Shown here: piece after piece, positions 4,435 to 27,723 of the stretch
Layout: each line of letters opens with the position of its first letter
How positions within the stretch are numbered: position 1 is the first letter of the stretch
Source: Lysobacterales bacterium
GTDB lineage: Bacteria > Pseudomonadota > Gammaproteobacteria > Xanthomonadales > Ahniellaceae
Assembly: GCA_017997455.1 (NCBI GenBank)
Contig: JAGOEZ010000002.1
Coordinates: forward strand, 10,374 to 46,095
Direction: 5' to 3'
DNA: 35,722 nt
The notes under the pieces: model-generated
Seen by the model: only the letters and a program-made list of their open reading frames with translations
Databases searched by the model: none
Told to the model about the DNA's origin: nothing
Translations under genes and position numbers: made by a program

Positions 4435-5862
4435 TCAATCGGCCGGCGGCAGGCGCAGGGCCAGGAAACTGCTGGCGTCGCCGCGGCGCACCAGCAGCAT
4501 GACCGACTGGCCCGGCTTGGCGGCGCCGGCCTGGGCCTGGAAGGCCGCCGCCGTGCCCACGCGCACCCGCCCGACCATCAGGATCACGTCGCCGGGTTGC
4601 AATCCGGCCCGCGCGGCGACCGCGCCGCTGACATCCTCGACCAGCACGCCCTCGTCGGCGCCGAGGCCCAGTTCCTCGCGCTCGTCGGCGCTGAGGTCGC
4701 GCACGCCGATGCCGAGCGGATTGGTGGCTTCGGCGACTTCGGGCCGGGCCGCTTCGGGCTCGCCGTCCTCGGGCGGCAACTCGCCGACCGTGACCGGCAG
4801 GTCGAGGGTCTTGCCGTCGCGCCACACCCGCAGCGTGGCACGCGAGCCCGGCGCGGTGGCGCCGACCAGCGGCGGCAATTCGTTGGAATCCGAGACCTCG
4901 GCGCCGTTCCAGCCCAGGATCACGTCCTGGACCTTGACCCCGGCGCGTTCCGCCGCCGAACCCGGCACCACCTGCGCCACCAGCGCCCCGCCGATCTTCG
5001 GCAGGCCCAGGGCCTCGGCGGTGTCGCGGTCGATGCGCTGGATCTGCACCCCGATCGATCCGCGGCTGACCTTGCCCTTGGTGCGCAATTGCTCGGCGAC
5101 CGAACGCGCGACCTCGATCGGGATCGCGAAGGACACGCCGATCGAGCCGCCGGTGTTGGAGAAGATCTGCGAGTTGATCCCGACCACCTCGCCCTGGAGG
5201 TTGAACAGCGGCCCGCCGGAGTTGCCGCGGTTGATCGCGACGTCGGTCTGGATGAAGGGCACGTAGCGCTGGTCGGGATTGATGGTGCGCCCGACCGCGC
5301 TGACGATGCCGGCGGTGACGGTGAAATCGAGCCCGAAGGGCGAGCCGATCGCGACCACCCACTGGCCGGGCTTGAGCGCCTTCGACTCGCCGAGCACAAG
5401 CACCGGCAGGTCGCTCGCCTCGACCTTGAGCAGGGCCACGTCGGTGGCGGCATCGGAGCCGATGACCTTGGCGGTGAACTCGCGCCGGTCCTTGAGCCGG
5501 ACCACGACCTCGGTCGCGCCATCGACGACGTGGTGGTTGGTCAGGAGGTAACCGTCGCGCGAGATCACGAAGCCCGAGCCGCCCGAGATGCTGTCCGGCC
5601 GGCGGCCGTCGAGTCCGCGGTGCGGATTGCGCGGATCGTTGGGATCGCCGAAGAAGCGCCGGAACAACTCCGGCATGTCCTCGCCATACAGCTCCGACAG
5701 CTCCTCCGCGTCGCCGCCGCTCTTGCGCGCGGTGATGTTGACCACCGCCGGCGCGTTGGCCTCCACCAGCCCGGTGAAGTCCGGAAGCTGGGCCCGGGCC
5801 GGGGCGGCCAGCAGGCAGGCCAGGGCGAACATGGCGGCAGTCAGTGAATTCGGAACGCGCAT
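4435..5862 (-). CDS. mucD: Periplasmic serine protease MucD/DegP (HtrA family)
   Basis: Sigma-E regulon periplasmic protease/chaperone that degrades misfolded envelope proteins. It is 475 residues long. A signal peptide occupies about residues 1-24 (cleavage after PARA). The trypsin-like triad is H111 (TNHHVVDG), D141 (DAATDVALLK) and S215 (NRGNSGGPLF). Two PDZ domains follow, at about 250-350 and 380-470. The frame stays open far upstream, but the signal peptide fixes the start at the ATG at 5862. It is the fourth gene after rpoE-rseA-rseB, the same order as Pseudomonas algU-mucA-mucB-mucD. Confidence 0.96.
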   Translation of the reverse strand: MRVPNSLTAAMFALACLLAAPARAQLPDFTGLVEANAPAVVNITARKSGGDAEELSELYGEDMPELFRRFFGDPNDPRNPHRGLDGRRPDSISGGSGFVISRDGYLLTNHHVVDGATEVVVRLKDRREFTAKVIGSDAATDVALLKVEASDLPVLVLGESKALKPGQWVVAIGSPFGLDFTVTAGIVSAVGRTINPDQRYVPFIQTDVAINRGNSGGPLFNLQGEVVGINSQIFSNTGGSIGVSFAIPIEVARSVAEQLRTKGKVSRGSIGVQIQRIDRDTAEALGLPKIGGALVAQVVPGSAAERAGVKVQDVILGWNGAEVSDSNELPPLVGATAPGSRATLRVWRDGKTLDLPVTVGELPPEDGEPEAARPEVAEATNPLGIGVRDLSADEREELGLGADEGVLVEDVSGAVAARAGLQPGDVILMVGRVRVGTAAAFQAQAGAAKPGQSVMLLVRRGDASSFLALRLPPAD

Positions 5863-5974: not shown

Positions 5975-6889
5975 TCAGTCCGGGGGCGTGGCCACGGAAC
6001 GAGCGATGCGCTCCACCGTCGCCGGCGGCACGTCGCCCACCACCACGACCTGGTGCTGGTCCAGCGTGCGCCCGTAGACGCTGAGCGCGCCGCGGCGGTG
6101 GCTGCCGACCGGCGCGTTTCCGAGCGGTTCGACGTACACCGAGACGCTCGCCAGCCCGTCCGAATACAACAGGTGCTGCGCGCCCGGCGCGGAATCGGCG
6201 GCGCGCCCCACGAGGCGGAAGCCCGCAGGCAGGTCGCCCACGGTCCAGCCGGCGTCGTCCGCAGCCTCCGCTGCCGCGGCCGCTTGCGCCGCGACCGGCA
6301 CCGGCGCGGCGTTCGCGGCCGCCGGCTGCAGCACCAGGTCCACGAACATGATCTGCTCCACCGCGGCGCCCGTGGGTCCGACCAGGGTCGAGCCCAGGAG
6401 CATGCCGCTTTGCGGCTCGATCCACAGGCGGTAGCCATAGCGGGCCGCGTCGCGCGGGCGCGCGTCGAGGACCAGCGCGTCGTGCCCGGCGACGCGGTCG
6501 CGCCCGACCACGGCGATGAGATACGGCGACTCCGGATCGGCCAGGCGCTGCAGGTCGGGTGCCGGCAGGGCGACGCGGCCGGCCTCGGCCAGCGTCATCG
6601 ATCCGCCGCCCACCGTGCAACGCGTGCCGCTGGCGTCGCGCACCAGTTCGCGCCGTTCGCCGGTCAGCGCCACCAGCCGCTCGACGCTGCCCTCGGGCCC
6701 CACGCTGCGGGTGACGCGCATCGCGTCGAGGCGGCCGTCGTGGAGGTACACGAAAGTACCCTGGTACTGCAGGTTGCCGAAGGCCGCCGCCGCGCGCTGC
6801 AGGAGGCTGGCGGGATCATCGGCCGCGTGCGCCGCGAACGCGGCGCACAGGGCCCACGCCACCACGGCCAGCCGTCGCGGGAACCGCAT
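5975..6889 (-). CDS. rseB: Sigma-E regulatory periplasmic protein RseB/MucB
   Basis: Binds the periplasmic domain of the anti-sigma factor and protects it from proteolysis until envelope stress is sensed. It is 304 residues from the ATG. A signal peptide covers about residues 1-22 (cleavage after AAHA). The MucB/RseB core contains FGNLQYQGTFVYLHDGRL and RYGYRLWIEPQSGMLLGS. An Ala-rich linker around residues 200-220 separates the two lobes. The ATG shares one base with the rseA stop (TGATG); a TTG one codon earlier is possible but less likely. I recall Xanthomonas clusters as lacking rseB, which would favour another family of the order. Confidence 0.93.
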   Translation of the reverse strand: MRFPRRLAVVAWALCAAFAAHAADDPASLLQRAAAAFGNLQYQGTFVYLHDGRLDAMRVTRSVGPEGSVERLVALTGERRELVRDASGTRCTVGGGSMTLAEAGRVALPAPDLQRLADPESPYLIAVVGRDRVAGHDALVLDARPRDAARYGYRLWIEPQSGMLLGSTLVGPTGAAVEQIMFVDLVLQPAAANAAPVPVAAQAAAAAEAADDAGWTVGDLPAGFRLVGRAADSAPGAQHLLYSDGLASVSVYVEPLGNAPVGSHRRGALSVYGRTLDQHQVVVVGDVPPATVERIARSVATPPD

Positions 6890-7485
6890 CAACGCGGAAC
6901 GGTGGCAGCGGCCGCGGCCGCCGGCCGGGCCTGGCCCGGCCCGGCGACCACATAGACGTAAGGCACGAAGCCGCCGCGCGCCGCGCCAGTAGCCGCGCCG
7001 CCATGGCGCAGGAGGTAACTCTCGAACTGCGGGTCGACCGGGGTGCTGGATGGCAACACCGGACCGAGGTCGGCGACCGGCTGCGCCAGGATCGGGGTGG
7101 CGAGGTCGTCGGCGCGCAAGGCCGAGGTCTGGGCCAGCGTTGCCACCGGCGGCGCCGGCACGGTCGCCGGCTGGATCACGTACAGCGCCAGCGCGGCGAC
7201 GCCGGCCGCGACCGCCGCGCCCAGCGCGGGACGCAGCCAGCGCTGGCCCGCGGCGGGGCCGGCTTCGACCGCCACCCGCGCCATCACCGCATCGGCAAAA
7301 CCGGGGTCGACCAGCGCGGCAGGCTGCCGCAGCAGGCAGGCGCGGACCACGTGCCAGCGCGCCCAGCGCCGGCGCAGGGCGCCATCGGCGGCGGCGCTGC
7401 GCAGGATGAAGCGCAGTTCGTCGCGGCCGAGTTCGCCGTCCGCGAGCGCGGAGAGCGTTTCGAGCTTGGAATCGGGGGTGCTCAT
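6889..7485 (-). CDS. rseA: Anti-sigma-E factor RseA/MucA
   Basis: Single-pass inner-membrane anti-sigma factor that sequesters RpoE at the membrane. It is 198 residues long. The cytoplasmic N-terminal domain begins LETLSALADGELGRDELRF, typical of the RseA_N fold. A membrane segment is at about residues 84-104 (RPALGAAVAAGVAALALYVI), followed by an Ala/Pro-rich periplasmic tail. The start codon overlaps the rpoE stop (ATGA) and the stop overlaps the rseB start, so stoichiometry is probably set by translational coupling. Confidence 0.95.
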   Translation of the reverse strand: MSTPDSKLETLSALADGELGRDELRFILRSAAADGALRRRWARWHVVRACLLRQPAALVDPGFADAVMARVAVEAGPAAGQRWLRPALGAAVAAGVAALALYVIQPATVPAPPVATLAQTSALRADDLATPILAQPVADLGPVLPSSTPVDPQFESYLLRHGGAATGAARGGFVPYVYVVAGPGQARPAAAAAATVPR

Positions 7486-8072
7486 GTGCGGTCGTCTTCG
7501 CTCAGTAGGGGCCTCAGCTGCTCGTCGATCGCCTCGCGGGCGCGGAAGATGCGCGAGCGCACGGTGCCGATCGGGCAGTTCATCGTTTCCGCGATTTCCT
7601 CGTAGCTCAGGCCGTCCACCTCGCGGAGGGTGATCGCCTGTCGCAATTCATCCGGCAACGCATCCACGGCCCGGGTCACGGTGCGCTCGATCTCCTGGCG
7701 CAACAGCTCGCGCTCGGGCGTGGAACCGTCCTTGAGCCGCACCGCGGCATCGAGGTGCTCCGCATCCTCGACCTGCACGTCCTCGGTCGGTGGCCGGCGT
7801 CCCTGCGAGACCAGCCAGTTCTTGGCCGTGTTGATCGCGATCTTGTACAGCCACGTATAGAAGGCGCTGTCGCCGCGAAAGTTCCCGATCGCCCGATACG
7901 CCCGCACGAAGCTCTCCTGCGCCACGTCCTGGCACTCGGACCAGTCGCCGACGTAGCGCGAGATCACGCTGGTCAGCTTGTGCTGGTACTTGCGCACGAG
8001 CAGGTCGAAGGCGCCCTTTTCGCCCGCCTGCACGCGCCGGACCAGCGCCTGATCGAGTTCGTTGTCGCTCAT
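7482..8072 (-). CDS. rpoE: RNA polymerase sigma factor RpoE (sigma-E/AlgU type)
   Basis: ECF sigma factor for the envelope-stress response. It is 196 residues long. Region 2 spans about residues 22-90 (DLLVRKYQHKLTSVISRYVG, DVAQESFVRAYRAIGNFRG, FYTWLYKIAINTAKNWL). Region 4 spans about 130-182 (LPDELRQAITLREVDGLSYE and the helix-turn-helix NCPIGTVRSRIFRARE). It heads the rseA-rseB-mucD cluster. A sigma-E-type promoter lies about 80 bases upstream, consistent with autoregulation. Confidence 0.97.
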   Translation of the reverse strand: MSDNELDQALVRRVQAGEKGAFDLLVRKYQHKLTSVISRYVGDWSECQDVAQESFVRAYRAIGNFRGDSAFYTWLYKIAINTAKNWLVSQGRRPPTEDVQVEDAEHLDAAVRLKDGSTPERELLRQEIERTVTRAVDALPDELRQAITLREVDGLSYEEIAETMNCPIGTVRSRIFRAREAIDEQLRPLLSEDDRT

Positions 8073-8151
8073 GCGGGCCTTGCGCCTCCCTGTCGCCCGA
8101 CCCGGTCATGTCGCCGCCCCCGCCGCCGTCCAGGCATCGGGGGCCGCTTCC

Positions 8152-8178
8152 ATGGACCGCGCCGCGGGCGAAAAGTTC
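8152..8178 (-). promoter_or_regulatory. Predicted sigma-E-dependent promoter of rpoE
   Basis: On the minus strand GAACTT (8178-8173) is followed after exactly 16 bases by TCCAT (8156-8152). This is close to the known sigma-E/AlgU pattern GAACTT-N16/17-TC with an A-rich end. It lies in the 112-base gap before rpoE, giving a leader of about 70 bases. Autoregulation of rpoE from such a promoter is known in enterics and Pseudomonas. Its use here is inferred from the match. Confidence 0.65.
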
Positions 8179-8184
8179 GCCGCT

Positions 8185-10797
8185 TCAGGAGTTTGCCGCC
8201 AGCAGCCGCTCGCGCTCGGCCATCATGTTCTCGAAACTGGCGGCCGGCAGCGGGCGGCAGAACAGGTATCCCTGCAGGTCCTCGCAGCCGTGCTCGCGCA
8301 GGAACAGCAGGTGCTCCTCGTACTCAACGCCCTCGGCCACCACGCTGCGACCGAGGTTGTGCGCCATGTGGATGGTCGCGCGGACGATCGCCTCGTCGTC
8401 GGGATCGACGCCGATGTTGCGCACGAACACCTGGTCGATCTTGATCCGGTCGGCCGGGAAACGGCGGATGTAGTCGAGCGAGGACTGGCCGGTGCCGAAG
8501 TCGTCGATCGCGATCGAACAGCCCAGGGTGCGGATCGCCTGCAGGGTCTCGAGCAGGTTCGGGATCGACTTCACGTTGAGGCTCTCGGTGACCTCGAGCT
8601 CGAGGTATTTCGCCTCGAGGCCGAAGTCGTCGAGCGCGCGCTGCACGACCTCGACCAGGTTGGGCTGGCGCAACTGCAAGGGCGAAAGATTGACGCTGAT
8701 CCGCAGCGGCATCTCGAAGCGCACGTGCCACGCGCGGGCCTGCTGCACGGCCTGGCGCAGGACCCACTCGCCGATCGAGAGGATCAGGCCGGTCTCCTCG
8801 GCCAGCGGGATGAAGAACCCGGGACTGATCATGCCGAGTTCGGGATGCTCCCAGCGGACCAGCGCCTCCATGCCCACGATGTCCTCGGTCTCGGTGCAGA
8901 CCTGCGGCTGGTAGTAGACCCGCAACTCGCCGTTGCGCTCGGCCTGGCGCAGCTTGGCCTCGAGCGCGAGGCGCTGCTGGTGTGACTCCTCGGGCACCGC
9001 GACGTAGGCCTGCCAGGTGTTGCGGCCGATGCCCTTGGCGCTGTACATCGCCACGTCCGCGTGCTGCAGCATCTTGTCGGCCGAGCTGGCGTCGTCGGGA
9101 TAGAAGCTGATGCCGATGCTGGCGGTGATGTGCAGCTCGCGGCCGTCGGAGAGCGTCAGCGCCGCTTCCAGCACGCGGCAGATCTTCTCGGCGATGCGCA
9201 GCACGTCGTCGCGCTGGACGATGTGGCGCAGGATCAGGGTGAACTCGTCGCCGGCGTAGCGCGCCACCGTGTCGGAGCCGCGCAGCGCGGCGCGCAGGCG
9301 CTTGGCCGCCGCCACCAGCACCTCGTCGCCGACGCCGTGGCCGAGGCTGTCGTTGATGGTCTTGAAGCGGTCGAGGTCGACGAACAGGACCGCGAACATC
9401 TCGCCGGTGCGTTGCGCTTCCTTGATCGTGGTTTCGAGGCGGTCGTTGAACAGCAGCCGGTTGGGCATCCCGGTAAGCGAATCCTGCAGGCCCTTGGCCC
9501 GGCCCTGCTCGCGCGCGCGATCGAGCTCGAGCTCCATCGAGATGCGCCCGGCGGCGACCTCGAGCACCTCGCGCAGCCCGGTGACGCCGGTCCACGGCCG
9601 CGTGCTGGCGACCACCAGCGCGCCGACCGGGTCCTGGCGCTCGTCATGCAACGGCACCGCCGCGATCGCCGCGAGGCCGAGCGCCGCCACCGAGCGGTCG
9701 GCCGCGAACACGCGTTGCGCGGCCTCGGTCACGATCACCGGTTCGCCCGATTCCAGGCGCCGCAACAGTTCGCTCCAGTCCACCGTCGGCGACGGCATCG
9801 GCGATCCCGCGACATGCAGCAGCAGTTCGTTGGCGCCGCCCTGTTCGGGTCGCGCGCCGAGGACCCAGACATGGTCGGGGCGCAGCCAGTCGGCCAGCAG
9901 GCGCACGGCGCGGCGGATGGTCTCGCCTTCGCGCAGGGCGCCGATCGCGGCCGCGACGTGCAGCGCCTCGCCCAGGCCCTGGGCGTCGCTGGCGTCTCGA
10001 TAGCTGGTCAGGCACAGCAGGTCGCGGCCGCGCGCGACCAGCCGCGCGTGCGCCTCGACCCAGTAGCGCGACCCGTCGGCGCGCGCGCGCAGGCAGCGAT
10101 AGCGAACCCGGCCCTCGCGCCGCAGGCGCTGGCGCAGGGCTTCGCGCGCGGCCGCGTCATGGGTGTGGTCGAGGGTGTCGAAGGGCGTGCCGACCAGCTG
10201 CGCCCGCGGGATGCCGGTGCGCTGTTCCAGCGCGCCGTTGGCGTCGAGGATCTGCCCGGTCGTCCACGACGACAGCACCAGCTCGTCCGGGTGGCCGTCG
10301 AAGGCCAGGTGGAAGTCCTGGCCCTCGAAGCCCGGTTCAGTCGCCGCCGGCGCGCCAGCCGGGACGCTCGCGACCGGCTCGGCCGGCGCCGGCGCCGGTG
10401 CGCGACCCGCGGCCAGCACCTGCTGGATGCGCGCCAGCGCCTCCGCGCCGATGACCGGCGTGCGGATCCAGTCCGACACCAGGTCGGGCGCGTGCATCCA
10501 GCCCCAGCGCCGCTCGAGGTCCTCGGCCGAGGCGATGCCGATCACCGGCAGCTTGCGCCCGGTCTGTTGCGCGATCTCGGCGCGGAACGCCAGCGCCTCG
10601 CGCGCGTCGCCCTGGAACTCGAGCAGGATCGCGTCCAGGCGCGGGTCCTGGCGCAGGAAGGCATGGGCCTGGGCGAAGTCCTTGGCGGTGTAGATCGCGT
10701 CGAATTCGTAGGCGTCGAGGGTTTCGAACAGCGCACGCCGGTCGTCGCGGTTCATGACCACGATCAGGACCGCGCCGCGCAGGGCTTCACTGGCCAT
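8185..10797 (-). CDS. Multidomain c-di-GMP protein: REC-like, PAS, GAF, GGDEF, EAL
   Basis: Likely c-di-GMP phosphodiesterase with a possible diguanylate cyclase domain, 870 residues. Domains in order: a receiver-like fold (about 5-130) whose phospho-acceptor position is Glu60 (AILLEF) rather than Asp; an Ala/Pro linker; PAS (160-270); GAF-like (275-425); GGDEF (440-600) with AGDEF at 515-519; and EAL (615-860). The EAL domain keeps the catalytic set: EAL at 644-646, NLSPLQL, ELEVTES, IDDFGTGQSS, KID, EGVE and LQGY. The start is an ATG two bases after the upstream gene's stop, so the two genes form one unit. The signal it senses is unknown. Confidence 0.9.
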   Translation of the reverse strand: MASEALRGAVLIVVMNRDDRRALFETLDAYEFDAIYTAKDFAQAHAFLRQDPRLDAILLEFQGDAREALAFRAEIAQQTGRKLPVIGIASAEDLERRWGWMHAPDLVSDWIRTPVIGAEALARIQQVLAAGRAPAPAPAEPVASVPAGAPAATEPGFEGQDFHLAFDGHPDELVLSSWTTGQILDANGALEQRTGIPRAQLVGTPFDTLDHTHDAAAREALRQRLRREGRVRYRCLRARADGSRYWVEAHARLVARGRDLLCLTSYRDASDAQGLGEALHVAAAIGALREGETIRRAVRLLADWLRPDHVWVLGARPEQGGANELLLHVAGSPMPSPTVDWSELLRRLESGEPVIVTEAAQRVFAADRSVAALGLAAIAAVPLHDERQDPVGALVVASTRPWTGVTGLREVLEVAAGRISMELELDRAREQGRAKGLQDSLTGMPNRLLFNDRLETTIKEAQRTGEMFAVLFVDLDRFKTINDSLGHGVGDEVLVAAAKRLRAALRGSDTVARYAGDEFTLILRHIVQRDDVLRIAEKICRVLEAALTLSDGRELHITASIGISFYPDDASSADKMLQHADVAMYSAKGIGRNTWQAYVAVPEESHQQRLALEAKLRQAERNGELRVYYQPQVCTETEDIVGMEALVRWEHPELGMISPGFFIPLAEETGLILSIGEWVLRQAVQQARAWHVRFEMPLRISVNLSPLQLRQPNLVEVVQRALDDFGLEAKYLELEVTESLNVKSIPNLLETLQAIRTLGCSIAIDDFGTGQSSLDYIRRFPADRIKIDQVFVRNIGVDPDDEAIVRATIHMAHNLGRSVVAEGVEYEEHLLFLREHGCEDLQGYLFCRPLPAASFENMMAERERLLAANS

Positions 10798-10799
10798 GC

Positions 10800-11333
10800 T
10801 CAGGCCAGCCAGCGACCATCGCGCAGGCGCAGGCGGCGGCCGCCACCGGGATCGTCGACGATGCGGTCGAGCAGCTCGTCGACGCCTTCGGTGAAAGTCA
10901 CCCGGGTGTCGATCAGCACGATCTTGCGCACGTTGCCTCCGCCCTTGCCGCGCCCGATGGTGCGCAACTGCGCCAGCACCTGGTTGCGCGCGGCGGCAAA
11001 ACGCAGGGTCCCGCCCAGGTGCAGGAACAGGTAGACGCCGAATTGCGGGCTGGACTGGATGTAGCGCAGCGCGTCCGGCAGGCGGATCGAACCCGGCACG
11101 CTGACGTCGCGCTCGCGCAGGCTGGTGATGCCCTCGCCCTCGGTCCACGCGTAGATCGAACTGCCGCTGCGCACCGCGTACTGGCGGAATTGCGCCAGCA
11201 CCTCGTCACCGCGCGCGGTATCGATCGCCAGCAGGTTGCGTGGACTGCCGACGATGCGGTCCACCAGCTGCGGCGTCACGAACAATGCGGCGATCTCGCC
11301 CGTTGCGGCCTTGGGTGTCCCGACTTCCATCAT
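10800..11333 (-). CDS. Stand-alone domain resembling the N-terminal region of Ycf46-type AAA ATPases
   Basis: Soluble protein of about 177 residues, function unknown. Segments such as NLLAIDTARGDEVLAQFRQY, IYAWTEGEGITSL, YLFLHLGGTLRF and RKIVLIDTRV resemble the predicted non-catalytic N-terminal half of Ycf46-type ATPases (a 'daily-use' acidic-loop/beta fold). No Walker A or B motif and no ATPase domain follow. The start is uncertain: tandem ATGs at 11333 and 11330, or 11372, with only weak ribosome sites. It precedes the c-di-GMP protein by two bases and is probably a partner or regulator of it. The family resemblance is from memory and moderate. Confidence 0.7.
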   Translation of the reverse strand: MMEVGTPKAATGEIAALFVTPQLVDRIVGSPRNLLAIDTARGDEVLAQFRQYAVRSGSSIYAWTEGEGITSLRERDVSVPGSIRLPDALRYIQSSPQFGVYLFLHLGGTLRFAAARNQVLAQLRTIGRGKGGGNVRKIVLIDTRVTFTEGVDELLDRIVDDPGGGRRLRLRDGRWLA

Positions 11334-11430
11334 CCAAACATAGCCTTGCGCCAACTTCCTTGCCAGAAGCATAGCTCGACCGGGGGTGCTAGGCTTCGCG
11401 GCCCGTCGCCCGTGCCGCGAGGACTCCAGC

Positions 11431-13467
11431 ATGTTCGAGGGACTGCGCTTCAAGCACTGGCGTCATGAACTGGGCGCCGACGGCATCCTGATCCTGACCC
11501 TGGACCGGGCCGGGGAGTCGGCCAACAGCCTCAGCCGCGAGGTCCTGGAGGAGCTCGGCCGGCTGGTCGAGCGGATCGGGATCGAGCCACCCAAGGGCGT
11601 GGTGATCCGTTCCGGCAAGTCCGGGAGCTTCGTGGTCGGGGCCGACCTGCGCGAATTCGAGCAGTTCGCGGCCCAGGGCCAGGTGCTGGAGTCGATCGAG
11701 CGCGGGCACCGCGTCTACGACGCCCTGGCGGCGCTGCGCTGCCCGACCGTGGCGGCGATCCATGGCGCCTGCATGGGCGGCGGCACCGAACTCGGCCTCG
11801 CCTGCCGCTGGCGCGTGGCCACCCGCGACCCGAAGACCCGCATCGGCCTGCCCGAGGTCAAGCTCGGGATCATGCCCGGCTGGGGCGGCACCTCGCGCCT
11901 GCCGCACCTCGTCGGCGCGCCCAAGGCCTTCGACCTGATGCTGACCGGGCGCGCGCTCGGCGCCAGCGCCGCGCGCGCCCTCGGTTACCTGGACGCGGTC
12001 TGCGACGAAGCCGAATTGCTCGACGCCGCCAAGCGCCTGGTGGCGCGCCGCCCGGCGCGCCCGCTGGCGCAGCGCACGCTGGCTTGGGCCACCAACACCT
12101 GGCCGGTGCGCCAGGTACTGGCGCCGATGATCCGCGGACAGACCGCGGCCAAGGCCGACCCGAAGCAATATCCCGCGCCCTTCGCGATGATCGAGCTGTG
12201 GCGTCGCCACGGCGGCAGCGTGGGCGCGATGCTGCGCGCCGAGCCGCGCGCGGTGGCCAGGCTCGCGGCCACGCCCACCGCGCGCAACCTGGTGCGGGTG
12301 TACTTCCTGCAGGAAGCGCTCAAGTCCGCGGGCAAGGGCGAACACGGCGTGCGCCACGTCCACGTGGTCGGCGCCGGCGTGATGGGCGGCGACATCGCGG
12401 CGTGGTGCGCGCTGCAGGGATTCACCGTGAGCCTGCAGGACCGCGAACTCAAGTACGTGCAGCCGGCGCTGGATCGCGCCGCCGATCTGTTCACCCGCCG
12501 CCTGAAAGTCGAGCCGAAGATCGGCGAGGCCAGGGCGCGCCTGGTCGCCGACGTCGAGGGCGCGAAGGTGCCCGAGGCCGACCTCGTGATCGAGGCGATC
12601 TTCGAGAATACCGAGGCCAAGCAGGCGCTCTACGCCAGCCTCGAGCCGCGGCTCAAGCCCGGCGCAATGCTCGCCACCAACACCTCGAGCATTCCGCTGG
12701 CCACGCTGGCGGAAAAGCTGGCGGACAGATCGCGCTTCGTCGGCCTGCACTATTTCAACCCGGTCGCGCTGATGCCGCTGGTCGAGATCGTGCGCCAGCC
12801 CGAACTGGCGCCGGAAGTCGAACGGCGCCTGCTGGCCTTCGCGCGCGCGATCGACAAGCTGCCGGTGCCGGTGGCGCCCTCGCCGGGCTTCCTGGTCAAC
12901 CGGATATTGATGCCCTACCTGCTCGAGGCCATGACCGCCTGGAACGAGGGCGTGCCGGGTCCCGTGATCGACCGCGCGGCGAAGAAGTTCGGCATGCCGA
13001 TGGGGCCGATCGAACTGGCCGACACCATCGGCCTCGACGTGGCGGCATCGGTAGGCAGGATCCTCGCGCCATTCCTGGGCCTCGAGATCCCCAAGGGCCT
13101 GGAGTCGCTGCTGGCCAATGGCAAGCGCGGCAAGAAGGACGGCCAGGGCCTCTACACCTGGGTCGAGGGCAAGGCGCAGAAGCCCGAGGTGCCGAAGGAC
13201 TTCGCGGTGCCCGGCGACCTGGGCGACCGCCTGGTGCTGCCGATGATCAACGAAGCGGTGGCCTGCCTGGCCGAAGGCGTGGTCACGACCGAGGAGCAGC
13301 TCGACGCCGGCGTGATCTTCGGCACCGGCTTCGCGCCCTTCCGCGGCGGACCGATCCAGTTCGTTCGCGACACCGGTGCGGCGGCGCTCATGGCGCGCCT
13401 CGACGCGCTGGCGGCCAAGTACGGCCCGCGCTTCAAGCCCAAGGCCGGCTGGGACCGCTTCGGCTGA
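11431..13467 (+). CDS. fadB: FadB/FadJ-type enoyl-CoA hydratase/3-hydroxyacyl-CoA dehydrogenase
   Basis: Bifunctional fatty-acid beta-oxidation enzyme of 678 residues, slightly shorter than E. coli FadB. The N-terminal hydratase domain shows HGACMGGGTELGLAC with E120 and LPEVKLGIMPGWGG with E142, the two catalytic glutamates. The dehydrogenase half begins at about residue 310 with the Rossmann motif VVGAGVMGGDIAAW. It continues with NTSSIPLATLA, GLHYFNPVALMPLVEIV (catalytic His) and FLVNRILMPY. The start at 11431 has CGAGGA about ten bases upstream. The usual thiolase partner fadA is absent nearby; the gene ends six bases from convergent cysG. Confidence 0.9.
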   Translation: MFEGLRFKHWRHELGADGILILTLDRAGESANSLSREVLEELGRLVERIGIEPPKGVVIRSGKSGSFVVGADLREFEQFAAQGQVLESIERGHRVYDALAALRCPTVAAIHGACMGGGTELGLACRWRVATRDPKTRIGLPEVKLGIMPGWGGTSRLPHLVGAPKAFDLMLTGRALGASAARALGYLDAVCDEAELLDAAKRLVARRPARPLAQRTLAWATNTWPVRQVLAPMIRGQTAAKADPKQYPAPFAMIELWRRHGGSVGAMLRAEPRAVARLAATPTARNLVRVYFLQEALKSAGKGEHGVRHVHVVGAGVMGGDIAAWCALQGFTVSLQDRELKYVQPALDRAADLFTRRLKVEPKIGEARARLVADVEGAKVPEADLVIEAIFENTEAKQALYASLEPRLKPGAMLATNTSSIPLATLAEKLADRSRFVGLHYFNPVALMPLVEIVRQPELAPEVERRLLAFARAIDKLPVPVAPSPGFLVNRILMPYLLEAMTAWNEGVPGPVIDRAAKKFGMPMGPIELADTIGLDVAASVGRILAPFLGLEIPKGLESLLANGKRGKKDGQGLYTWVEGKAQKPEVPKDFAVPGDLGDRLVLPMINEAVACLAEGVVTTEEQLDAGVIFGTGFAPFRGGPIQFVRDTGAAALMARLDALAAKYGPRFKPKAGWDRFG

Positions 13468-16244: not shown

Positions 16245-17210
16245 TCAGTCGCCCATCTGCTTCTGCCGATGCTCCCAGCGCTCCTGCGCGTCGAGGCACA
16301 GGGTCGCGATCGGGCGCGCCTCCAGGCGCTCCAGGCCGATCTCTTCGCCGGTCTCCTCGCAGTAGCCGTACTCGCCATCCTCGATCCGCTTGAGCGCCTT
16401 GTCGATCTTGTTGATCAGCTTGCGATAGCGGTCGCGGGTGCGCAGTTCGAGCGAGTTCTCGGTCTCGCGCGTCGCGCGCTCGGCCTCGTCGCCGACGTCG
16501 CGGACCTCGTCGCGCAGGTTGTCGATGGTCTGCTTGGATTCCTCCACCAGGTCGACCCGCCACTGCGACAGCTTGCGACGGAAGTACTCGAGGTGCAGCG
16601 ACCCCATGTAGGGATCCTTGGACGACAGCACGTAGCCCGGCGGCAATTCGATCCGTGGCGCATCACCGGGCTTCTTGCCCGCGGCGCTGTGCTTGCGCAG
16701 CGGACGCTGCACGGGCTTGGGCTTGCTGGTCGGCAGGGCCACGGCCTTGGGGCCGGTCGGGCGCGGCGAAGGCGGCGGCGAAACGTATACCGGGCGGGCC
16801 GGGAACACCTGCTTCTGGGACGCCTTCGATGGCGCCTTGGGGGCAGCCTTCGGCACCGCTGCCGGTGCGGCCGCCTTGGCCTTTGCCTGCGGCGCCGGCT
16901 TGGCCGGCGCCACGGGTTTCGCCTTCGGCGCGGGCTTGGTTGGCTTCTTCGGCGCGACCTTGGCCTTCACCGGGGCCGGCTTGCGTGCCGGCGCCGCAGC
17001 CTTGCCCTTGGCCGGGGCCGGTTTGCGGGGCGCCGGCTTGGCCGGCTTCTGCCTCGTTGCCGGCTTGGCCTTCGCGGCAGGCTTGGCCTTCGTGGCCGGC
17101 TTGGGCTTCGCGACCGCCTTGGGCTTGGCCTTAGCGGCCGCTTTGGATTTCTGCGCAGGCTTGCCGGCCTTGGGGGCGGACTTCTTCTTGCTCGCGGCGT
17201 TCTTCGCCAT
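16245..17210 (-). CDS. dksA: DksA/TraR-family RNA polymerase-binding protein with Lys/Ala/Pro-rich N-terminal tail
   Basis: Transcription factor that acts with ppGpp through the polymerase secondary channel. It is 321 residues, about twice E. coli DksA. Residues 1 to about 170 are a low-complexity K/A/P tail like a histone-H1 tail. The DksA core occupies about 200-321 with a coiled coil (ENSLELRTRDRYRKLINKID) whose tip reads D-x-x-E-x-A rather than D-x-x-D-x-A. The zinc site is half lost: Cys284, Thr287, Cys305, Ala308 replace four Cys, as in zinc-independent DksA paralogues. The core ends ERWEHRQKQMG as in the family. Tail function is unknown, perhaps DNA binding. Confidence 0.9.
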   Translation of the reverse strand: MAKNAASKKKSAPKAGKPAQKSKAAAKAKPKAVAKPKPATKAKPAAKAKPATRQKPAKPAPRKPAPAKGKAAAPARKPAPVKAKVAPKKPTKPAPKAKPVAPAKPAPQAKAKAAAPAAVPKAAPKAPSKASQKQVFPARPVYVSPPPSPRPTGPKAVALPTSKPKPVQRPLRKHSAAGKKPGDAPRIELPPGYVLSSKDPYMGSLHLEYFRRKLSQWRVDLVEESKQTIDNLRDEVRDVGDEAERATRETENSLELRTRDRYRKLINKIDKALKRIEDGEYGYCEETGEEIGLERLEARPIATLCLDAQERWEHRQKQMGD

Positions 17211-17303
17211 CTCGTACCAATCCTCTGTTCGCGTCGTTCGCGCCGCTCCCGGAATGGCGGACCCAGGGGCTCCGCGCGCCGGGTTGTGGCCGAACGGCCG
17301 CGT

Positions 17304-17332
17304 GTTATAGCGTAAGCACCCCCCGGCAGCAA
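17304..17332 (-). promoter_or_regulatory. Predicted sigma-70 promoter of the dksA-like gene
   Basis: On the minus strand TTGCTG (17332-17327), exactly 17 bases, then TATAAC (17309-17304). This gives a leader of roughly 90 bases before the ATG at 17210. It is among the few AT-rich stretches in this area. The surrounding sequence also forms an imperfect dyad, GTGTTATAGCGTAAGCAC, which could hold an operator. Confidence 0.55.
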
Positions 17333-17372
17333 CCGCCGCGGGGCCTACAATTCGGGCCACGCCATCATCGCG

Positions 17373-25318: not shown

Positions 25319-25650
25319 GGAAGGCTCCAATGCGCGAAGCCGCTTCCTGAAAGCGGCTGGAATTCAAGGTCTTGTCTTCAGGTGGCCGGGCCCCGGACGG
25401 GCCGGCATGACCTGCGGATGATACCCGCAAGCCGCGTGCAGGCGCAGCCCGGCCCGCAGGCGGCCTCGCGCGGCTCGCCAGCCAGCCTTCTCCCGGCCAG
25501 GGCCCCGGCACCTGCAGCGGCCGGCCGGCGCGGGCACTTGCGCACAATCCGGTATTCGATCCGGGTGTTACCGTGCACTCGTACGGGCCCCGTCCGGTGG
25601 CAATGCCCCTCCGGATCGGGTACAAAACGGACCCCCACGCACCACGCCCC
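25319..25650. other. 332-base divergent efp/fimX intergenic region
   Basis: There is no supported gene here. On the efp side a hairpin AGCCGCTT (25338-25345)/AAGCGGCT (25351-25358) lies 20 bases before the efp ATG. A minus-strand TATCAT (25423-25418) is a possible -10 with a poor -35. The middle is GC-rich (runs of CCGG) without a clear motif. On the fimX side the frame is open back to 25573, but I see no convincing promoter or ribosome site. Confidence 0.6.
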
Positions 25651-27723
25651 ATGCCCAAGCAGGATCAAGTCATCCGGCTGCTGCTGGTCGAGGATTCGAC
25701 CGAAGACGCGGAACAGATCGTCAGCCAGCTGCGCAACGGCGGCATTGCCGTGCGTCCGAACCGGGCCGAAACCCGCGAGGCGCTGGCCGAACAGCTCGAG
25801 AACCAGCCCAACGACCTGGTGCTGGTGAACGCGCGCGGCCACACCATTTCCCTCAAGGACGTGGTCGCCACGGTCAATGCCAGCGGCAAGGACCTGCCGG
25901 TCATCGCGCTGGTGTCGACGATCGACAACGACACCGCGCTGCAGCTGCTGCGCGAAGGCGTGCGCGCCAAGGCCTTGCGCACGCAGCCCGAGTACCTGCA
26001 GGCCATGGTGCGGCGCGAGTTCGAGGACCTCAGCCACCGCCGCGCGCTGCGCCGGCTCGAGGCCGCGCTCAAGGAGAGCGAGCGCCGCTGCGACGCGCTG
26101 CTCGATTCCTCGCGCGACCCCATCGCCTTCGTGCACGAAGGCATGCACGTGCGCGCGAACCGCGCCTACCTCGAGATGTTCGGCTTCGGCGATTTCGACG
26201 ACATCGAGGGCACGCCGATCCTGGAACTGATCGCGCCCGACGCCGCCGGGGGCTTCAAGGCCCTGCTCAAGCGCCTGTCCAAGGGCGAACGGCCGCCGGC
26301 CAAGCTCGAGATCAAGGCCCAGACCTCCGAGGGCGCAGCCTTCGATGCCTTGATGGAATTCGCCGAGGCGACCTTCGAGGGCGAGAGCTGCCAGCAGATC
26401 ACCCTGCGCCGCTCGGTCAGCGGCGTCGACGCCGAAGCCCTGGAGCAGATGCGCAACCAGGACCTGGTGACCAAGCTTTACAACCGGACCTATGCGCTGG
26501 GCGAGCTCGACCACATGGTGACCGAGGCCGCCAACGGCAGGAACGACCTCGCGCTGGCGCTGTTCGAACCCGACAACTTCCGTTCGGTGCTCGACACGGT
26601 CGGCCTCGGCAGCGCCGACCTGCTGCTGGCCGACATGGGCGCGCTGCTGCGCGAGCACCAGGGCCCCGACGACGTCGCGGCCCGCTTCGGCGAAAGCGCC
26701 TTCGTGATGCTGCTGCGGCGCCATTCGCACGACGATGCGGTCAAGCGCACGCAGGCCCTGCTCAAGGCCTTCGAGGACCGCATCTTCGAGGCCGGCAGCC
26801 GTTCGCTGCAGGTCACCATGAGCGTGGGCCTGGTGCTGGTCGGCGAGCGCATCGCCAACGCCGACGCGATCCTGCGCGAGGCCGCCACCGCGCTCAAGGC
26901 CGCGCAGGCCGAGGGCGGCAACCAGGTCGCCTCCTTCGACCCTTCGGCACAGGCCAAGGCGGACGCCGAGGCCGAGAAGACCCGCCTCGACCAGCTCAAG
27001 GCCGCGCTGACCACCCTCGACGGCTTCGTGCTGTTCTTCCAGCCGATCGTGAGCCTGCACGGCGCCGGCGGCGAGTTCTACGAGATCCTGCTGCGCATGC
27101 GCGGCAGCGGGCGCGAACTGCTGCCGGCGGAGTTCTTCCCGGTGGCGGAGCGCTTCAGCCTGTTGCCGGCGATCGACAAGTGGGTGATCGCGCGCGCGAT
27201 CGCCACCCTGGGCGAGCGCGAAAAGGCCGGCCACAAGACCACCTTCTTCATCAAGGTGACGGTGCCTTCGCTCGAGGACCCGACCCTGCTGCCGTTCATC
27301 GCCCAGCAGCTGCAGAAGCACCGCGTGTCGGGCGAGAAGCTGGTGTTCCTGATGCCCGAGAGCAAGGTCTCGACCAACCTCAACCCGGTCAAGCAGTTCA
27401 CCAAGGGCCTGGCCCAGCTGCATTGCGGCTTCGCGGTGCAGCAGTTCGGCAGCGGGCTCAACTCGTTCCAGCTGCTCAAGCACGTCGACCTCGACTACAT
27501 CAAGATCGACCGCACCTTCATGACCGACTTCGCCAAGACCCGCGAGAACCAGCTCAAGGTCAAGGAAATCTGCGAGCAGGCCCACGCGCAGAGCAAGCTC
27601 ACCATCGCCGAATTCGTCGAGGACGCGGCCAGCATGTCGATCCTCTTCACCCTCGGGGTCAACTTCGTGCAGGGCAACTTCCTGCAGGAGCCCGAGAAGG
27701 TGATGAGCTACGACTTCGGCTGA
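25651..27723 (+). CDS. fimX: FimX-like degenerate c-di-GMP receptor (REC-PAS-GGDEF-EAL)
   Basis: Probable regulator of type IV pilus assembly and twitching. Its 690 residues nearly equal the Xanthomonas protein as I remember it. The receiver domain (1-125) has E14-D15 but Asn60 at the phospho-acceptor (DLVLVN). PAS spans about 140-255. The GGDEF region reads GESAF at 347-351. The EAL domain from about 452 reads EIL (478-480), KVTVPS, QQFGSG and EFVED, so catalytic residues are lost, while QGNFLQEP keeps the QGxxxQxP-like end. This fits a binder, not an enzyme. The start 25651 matches relatives; open frame continues upstream. It diverges from efp. Confidence 0.82.
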   Translation: MPKQDQVIRLLLVEDSTEDAEQIVSQLRNGGIAVRPNRAETREALAEQLENQPNDLVLVNARGHTISLKDVVATVNASGKDLPVIALVSTIDNDTALQLLREGVRAKALRTQPEYLQAMVRREFEDLSHRRALRRLEAALKESERRCDALLDSSRDPIAFVHEGMHVRANRAYLEMFGFGDFDDIEGTPILELIAPDAAGGFKALLKRLSKGERPPAKLEIKAQTSEGAAFDALMEFAEATFEGESCQQITLRRSVSGVDAEALEQMRNQDLVTKLYNRTYALGELDHMVTEAANGRNDLALALFEPDNFRSVLDTVGLGSADLLLADMGALLREHQGPDDVAARFGESAFVMLLRRHSHDDAVKRTQALLKAFEDRIFEAGSRSLQVTMSVGLVLVGERIANADAILREAATALKAAQAEGGNQVASFDPSAQAKADAEAEKTRLDQLKAALTTLDGFVLFFQPIVSLHGAGGEFYEILLRMRGSGRELLPAEFFPVAERFSLLPAIDKWVIARAIATLGEREKAGHKTTFFIKVTVPSLEDPTLLPFIAQQLQKHRVSGEKLVFLMPESKVSTNLNPVKQFTKGLAQLHCGFAVQQFGSGLNSFQLLKHVDLDYIKIDRTFMTDFAKTRENQLKVKEICEQAHAQSKLTIAEFVEDAASMSILFTLGVNFVQGNFLQEPEKVMSYDFG

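Follow-up and report, generated by a model that had tools for sequence, protein, structure and literature searches.

A small stand-alone protein related to the N-terminal half of Ycf46-type ATPases is encoded immediately upstream of a c-di-GMP enzyme gene in the stretch of DNA analysed here (35,722 nucleotides in all, referred to as the window), and this arrangement is conserved within the order to which the source genome belongs. The protein is ATPase-dead and is a candidate regulatory partner of the enzyme, which is predicted to degrade c-di-GMP. The two genes of the pair are the following:

10800..11333, minus strand: small stand-alone Ycf46-N-like protein of 177 amino acids with a degenerate AAA-like fold (predicted), assigned by homology and predicted structure
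8185..10797, minus strand: c-di-GMP enzyme of 870 amino acids with a pseudo-REC/PAS/GAF/AGDEF/EAL layout, assigned by Pfam, predicted structure and ortholog alignment

The reading frame of the small gene starts with an ATG at 11333, although translation could also begin at another ATG (11336) or at a TTG farther upstream. The stop codon of the small gene extends to 10800 and the ATG of the enzyme gene begins at 10797, which leaves two bases between the two genes, exactly as the original prediction had placed them. The window's assembly carries a single copy of the small gene. No Pfam or NCBIfam model matched its product up to an E-value of 10, and searches of solved structures returned only weak sequence matches, both by phmmer with the small protein (best E 0.4) and by hmmsearch with its family (best E 0.031). 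DNA polymerase III gamma/tau, also an AAA+ protein, is among these weak matches at E 0.05-0.2, which is suggestive only. Distinct relatives of the small protein number 115 inside the order, the window's own included, and 21 outside it, and the most conserved residues of the family are YxW...G. A chance reading frame is ruled out by the conservation of the 115 proteins of the order. A scan of window positions 7900-11700 found neither promoter nor terminator.

The small protein is related to the N-terminal half of Ycf46, stands alone and is ATPase-dead. When it was used alone as the query (E <= 0.001), matches were obtained in 138 of 299 genomes of the order, the majority of them stand-alone frames. 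A second set of matches consisted of frames of about 500 amino acids or longer, aligned over approximately residues 27-157 with E-values from 4e-8 to 1e-3, one of these frames encoding an ATPase of 492 residues in which Walker A is present. When 369 genomes of the class were searched with a profile of the stand-alone family (50 rows), 76 of them gave matches, with Ycf46-type ATPases of about 500 amino acids reaching E-values down to 7e-22. The kinship with the Ycf46 N-terminal half, claimed at the outset, proved strong by profile comparison: hhalign of the small-protein family against residues 1-140 of the Ycf46-type ATPase gave an E-value of 2.3e-23 and a probability of 99.5 over 139 columns, whereas the control, in which the ATPase half was compared with the small-protein family, gave 0.43 and 0.1, respectively. 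The stretches W....GL and G[IV]YL are common to the small protein and the Ycf46 ATPases. In an unrooted tree of 75 rows (33 stand-alone proteins from the order, 17 stand-alone proteins from elsewhere and 25 ATPases), the group from the order is split off by a branch of 100/98 and the ATPases by a branch of 100/100.

In Ycf46-type AAA ATPases, which comprise Synechocystis Slr0374 and bacterial relatives of about 500 amino acids, the first 140 residues or so match the small protein over most of its length. The small protein differs from them in lacking the AAA core that bears Walker A, in having about one third of their length, in belonging to a separate clade and in being linked to c-di-GMP genes. 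Since the 177-residue chain has no C-terminal Walker A AAA core, it is to be regarded as a relative of one Ycf46 half and not as a member of the Ycf46-type ATPases. The known data on Ycf46 deal with the use of CO2 by a cyanobacterium (Jiang et al. 2015, as cited in PMC7496141).

Structure prediction for the small protein yielded an alpha/beta core (mean pLDDT 78.8, pTM 0.75, 59-row alignment). Nearly all of the Foldseek matches listed are AAA+ or related P-loop ATPases, and the best of them is the AAA domain of Rubisco activase (E 2.2e-4). VIA-align superposes the model on the Rubisco activase protein over 140 residues (3.8 A) and on Rad24 over 129 residues (3.3 A), each with a Z-score of 10.6; other AAA+ chains rank lower. 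At the level of prediction, the small protein has the alpha-beta-alpha core fold of AAA+ proteins. The strict Walker A pattern GxxxxGK[ST] occurs in none of the 136 distinct stand-alone relatives, compared with 25 of 25 Ycf46 ATPases, and looser matches were seen in two stand-alone relatives only (L093 and L177). The AAA+ matches of the predicted fold and the absence of Walker A together suggest that what had been called a non-catalytic half is a degenerate AAA-like domain. The description "ATPase-less" holds, but the notion of an unrelated accessory half does not, as structure prediction makes the domain a degenerate AAA-like core in its own right. By homology, the N-terminal half of Ycf46 itself should also be degenerate and AAA-like.

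The downstream enzyme consists of five domains, all on the minus strand:

10402..10776, minus strand: pseudo-receiver domain, residues about 8-132, a receiver fold in which the acidic pocket and the phosphoacceptor are not kept
9988..10305, minus strand: PAS domain, residues about 165-270, by Pfam and predicted structure
9538..9945, minus strand: GAF domain, residues about 285-420, by predicted structure, with Pfam GAF_2 below its cut-off
9019..9486, minus strand: GGDEF domain with an AGDEF motif and an I-site RxxD, by Pfam and ortholog alignment
8251..8958, minus strand: EAL domain, by Pfam; all 97 aligned orthologs keep the catalytic residues that were checked

The REC/PAS/GAF/GGDEF/EAL layout first proposed was borne out for PAS and EAL by Pfam and for GAF by predicted structure; the REC part had to be amended to a pseudo-receiver and the GGDEF motif to AGDEF. 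The Pfam matches are EAL (1e-72), GGDEF (1e-46) and PAS, REC was not detected by Pfam, and none of the NCBIfam equivalogs among the matches listed reaches its cut-off. Prediction of the N-terminus (mean pLDDT 86.6) gave a receiver fold and a GAF fold, separated by a PAS-like part, and comparison with known structures gave Z-scores of about 16 for receivers and about 17 for GAF domains. Residues E644, N703, E735, D765, D766, K786, E822 and Q842 of the EAL domain are kept in all 97 aligned orthologs and include the catalytic Glu, Asn, Asp-Asp, Lys, Glu and Gln. Position 515 of the GGDEF motif is A in 93 and S in 4 of the 97 orthologs, with the I-site R and D each present in 94; activity is reported for some enzymes with AGDEF. 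The activity of the enzyme is likely to be c-di-GMP hydrolysis. It shares the GGDEF-EAL layout and the conserved EAL catalytic residues with hybrid GGDEF-EAL phosphodiesterases with sensory N-termini, and is set apart from them by its pseudo-receiver input domain and by the invariant small gene upstream.

At the phosphoacceptor position of the receiver, position 60, the 97 orthologs include E in 49, V in 25, A in 14 and D in 7, and at positions 15, 16 and 113 the usual acidic pair and Lys are not kept. At three loci where the pair is still kept (L067, L068 and L097), the enzyme appears to be without a pseudo-receiver, which means that this domain cannot be the sole docking site for a partner. 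Distance correlations between the small protein and the five enzyme domains gave partial r values of 0.40-0.57 for all five, and none stands out. Elsewhere in the window, at 25411-27723 on the plus strand, a second REC-like/PAS/GGDEF/EAL protein is encoded, in which both catalytic motifs are degenerate by eye and whose layout is reminiscent of FimX.

Gene neighbourhoods in the order were surveyed at 39 loci from genomes with flanks and at 80 named loci, the latter mostly from Rhodanobacteraceae (e.g. Tahibacter, Dokdonella, Rhodanobacter, Dyella and Luteibacter), with gene order taken from homology-based gene positions. The pairing on which the original prediction was built turned out to be conserved. 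An EAL gene lies downstream of the small gene in 80 of 80 named loci, two of which are cut by a contig end, and after removal of duplicates it lies directly downstream for 111 of the 115 distinct small proteins, representing at least six families; the remaining four small genes lie close to contig ends, at distances of 34 to 1332 bases. The distance from the stop of the small gene to the start of the enzyme gene has a median of -1 base, and the two overlap in 51 of 94 loci. No fusion of the small protein with the enzyme was met among the loci examined.

The converse was checked in 13 genomes with a strong match to the enzyme N-terminus in which the single-protein query had found no small gene. 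Profile search located it beside the enzyme in 11 of them; of the other two stretches, L250 starts at a contig edge and L251 is not an ortholog. When these 13 genomes and a few others were re-examined by profile, the small gene was present in 16 of 20 stretches. Two REC-like frames have no adjoining small gene, namely the second frame of L246 (301 amino acids) and a frame of 182 amino acids at the contig end of L244. Altogether 161 stretches were scanned, and five that gave no small gene (L239, L244, L246, L250 and L251) were left out of the counts; in L239, a partial small gene was found by profile search.

Outside the order, the small gene is associated with a different c-di-GMP enzyme. In 10 of 21 such loci, a GGDEF gene of about 300 amino acids is located just upstream of the small gene on the same strand. 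This cyclase, searched for with a profile of its N-terminus (E <= 1e-20), was present in 145 of the 369 class genomes; 127 of the 145 are without the small gene. Among the 25 genomes outside the order that have a stand-alone small gene, the cyclase gene is adjacent in 16, elsewhere in 2 and not found by this profile search in 7; of the 18 genomes holding both genes, 16 thus have them side by side. The association is real and is looser than the pairing with EAL. Both RxxD and GGEEF are present in 9 of 10 cyclases examined; the exception, L106, failed to match the pattern. The PA3177-type cytoplasmic GGEEF cyclases of Pseudomonas are similar to this cyclase in size and in the GGEEF motif (PMC5702645).

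Other neighbours were also observed in these genomes. At two loci where the cyclase is absent (L118 and L119), a divergent thioredoxin-like gene of about 330 amino acids, read by eye, adjoins the small gene. At others (e.g. L117, L101 and L107), the small gene lies between an SDR or cyclase gene and an HhH-GPD base-excision-repair gene, in a conserved arrangement that includes an RluB-like pseudouridine synthase gene (by eye).

The two groups of relatives also differ at the C-terminus of the small protein, where those of the order carry a conserved motif:

10809..10826, minus strand: LRDGRW tail of the small protein, a C-terminal motif conserved in relatives of the order

The tail LR[DN][GA]xW was found in all 115 distinct proteins of the order (113 with the strict pattern and two with H or S before W), whereas none of the 21 relatives outside has LRDG. 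Its occurrence thus matches that of the EAL partner. At the three loci whose enzymes seem to be without a pseudo-receiver, the tail is kept as LRNGRW or LRNAQW. It may therefore touch a different region of the enzyme, or it may be no more than a marker of this clade.

With moderate confidence, the small protein is proposed to be an obligate regulatory partner, or adaptor, of the c-di-GMP phosphodiesterase. This reading is drawn from the presence of two c-di-GMP enzymes beside one ATPase-dead family, the overlap of the genes and an input domain without its phosphorylation pocket. As the AAA-like core of the Ycf46 N-domain is kept and the nucleotide site is lost, the small protein would serve as a protein-binding module rather than as an ATPase. 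Tight coupling of the genes would allow it to be made in step with the enzyme, to which it would bind. The sensory half of the enzyme is the most likely binding site, and the conserved LRDGRW tail could form the contact. Once bound, it may set the c-di-GMP-degrading activity of the enzyme or its location, and since the receiver is without the usual phosphorylation pocket, a bound partner instead of a kinase could supply the input. Four elements of this reading are inferred: that the two proteins bind, where they touch, which way the regulation runs and any tie to envelope stress. The "sensor or adaptor for c-di-GMP turnover" of the original prediction fits the sequence data and is strengthened by the separate cyclase association outside the order.

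According to a first alternative, the two genes are co-expressed and their products do not touch, the small protein having its own task, for instance in envelope stress. The relevant neighbours in the window, given as context outside the pair, are the following:

7482..8072, minus strand: rpoE (sigma-E), the next gene in most loci of the order
6889..7485, minus strand: rseA-like anti-sigma factor
5975..6892, minus strand: mucB/rseB
4435..5862, minus strand: degP/mucD-type periplasmic protease

The rpoE-rseA-mucB-degP cluster follows the pair in most loci of the order, and gene position alone suggests a link of the pair with sigma-E. The EAL-paired relatives, moreover, form one clade, which implies that the pairing arose once and that much of its persistence could reflect passive, vertical inheritance of a compact locus. 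Against a separate task, the pair is intact at loci where rpoE does not follow (L087, L218, L092, L093, L094 and L184, and also L091, which has the rpoE cluster on its other side), the distance from the enzyme to rpoE varies from 68 to 470 bases (median 168, n = 91), and the relatives outside the order adjoin a different c-di-GMP enzyme. A separate task is considered unlikely, with an appreciable residual chance.

It appears rather improbable that the small protein is itself an effector of c-di-GMP or GTP, in which the relic of the AAA site binds the dinucleotide and relays the signal to another target, even though such an effector would suit both a predicted phosphodiesterase beside one group and a predicted cyclase beside the other. 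Very improbable is a mixed complex in which the small protein replaces the N-domain of a full-length Ycf46-type ATPase: it is homologous to that half, and both genes are present in many genomes of the order, but it is paired with c-di-GMP genes and not with ycf46, and a family-profile search of the window's assembly (G000, 86% complete) found the small gene and no full-length Ycf46 ATPase. That the upstream frame is mainly a translational leader setting the enzyme level, as the frequent overlap of stop and start might suggest, is scarcely credible, given the conserved protein sequence with its invariant core and tail and the relatives that have no coupled downstream gene.

A regulatory partner of this kind would join known arrangements. 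In YfiR-YfiN and SiaC-SiaD, a separate partner protein is encoded next to the c-di-GMP enzyme and could set its activity, and these partners are believed to have folds unrelated to that of the small protein. Small partners of GGDEF/EAL enzymes are already known; what appears to be new is a partner of the Ycf46 lineage with a degenerate AAA-like fold. A literature search by titles and starts of abstracts found no published account of the pair. Many hybrid GGDEF-EAL enzymes have no known input, and the conserved partner gene beside one of them offers a direct handle on the switching of that enzyme. The pair also places the N-terminal half of the widespread Ycf46 ATPases in a functional context. 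As a wider and doubtful extension, stand-alone, ATPase-dead Ycf46-N-type proteins might serve c-di-GMP enzymes in general as regulatory subunits, having become associated separately with a phosphodiesterase in the order and with a cyclase in the rest of the class. The tail would then determine which of the two enzymes a given protein serves, and in the order c-di-GMP breakdown would be tied to the sigma-E envelope-stress locus.

The location of the pair ahead of the sigma-E cluster, if it is functional, would connect c-di-GMP turnover to envelope stress in Rhodanobacteraceae and related families. A possible precedent comes from Salmonella, where the protein concerned is reportedly of the EAL type. 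Envelope stress acts on that protein (PMC5930307). As a separate observation, the window also encodes, at 16245-17360 on the minus strand, a DksA-type protein with an Ala/Lys/Pro-rich N-terminal extension of about 250 residues.
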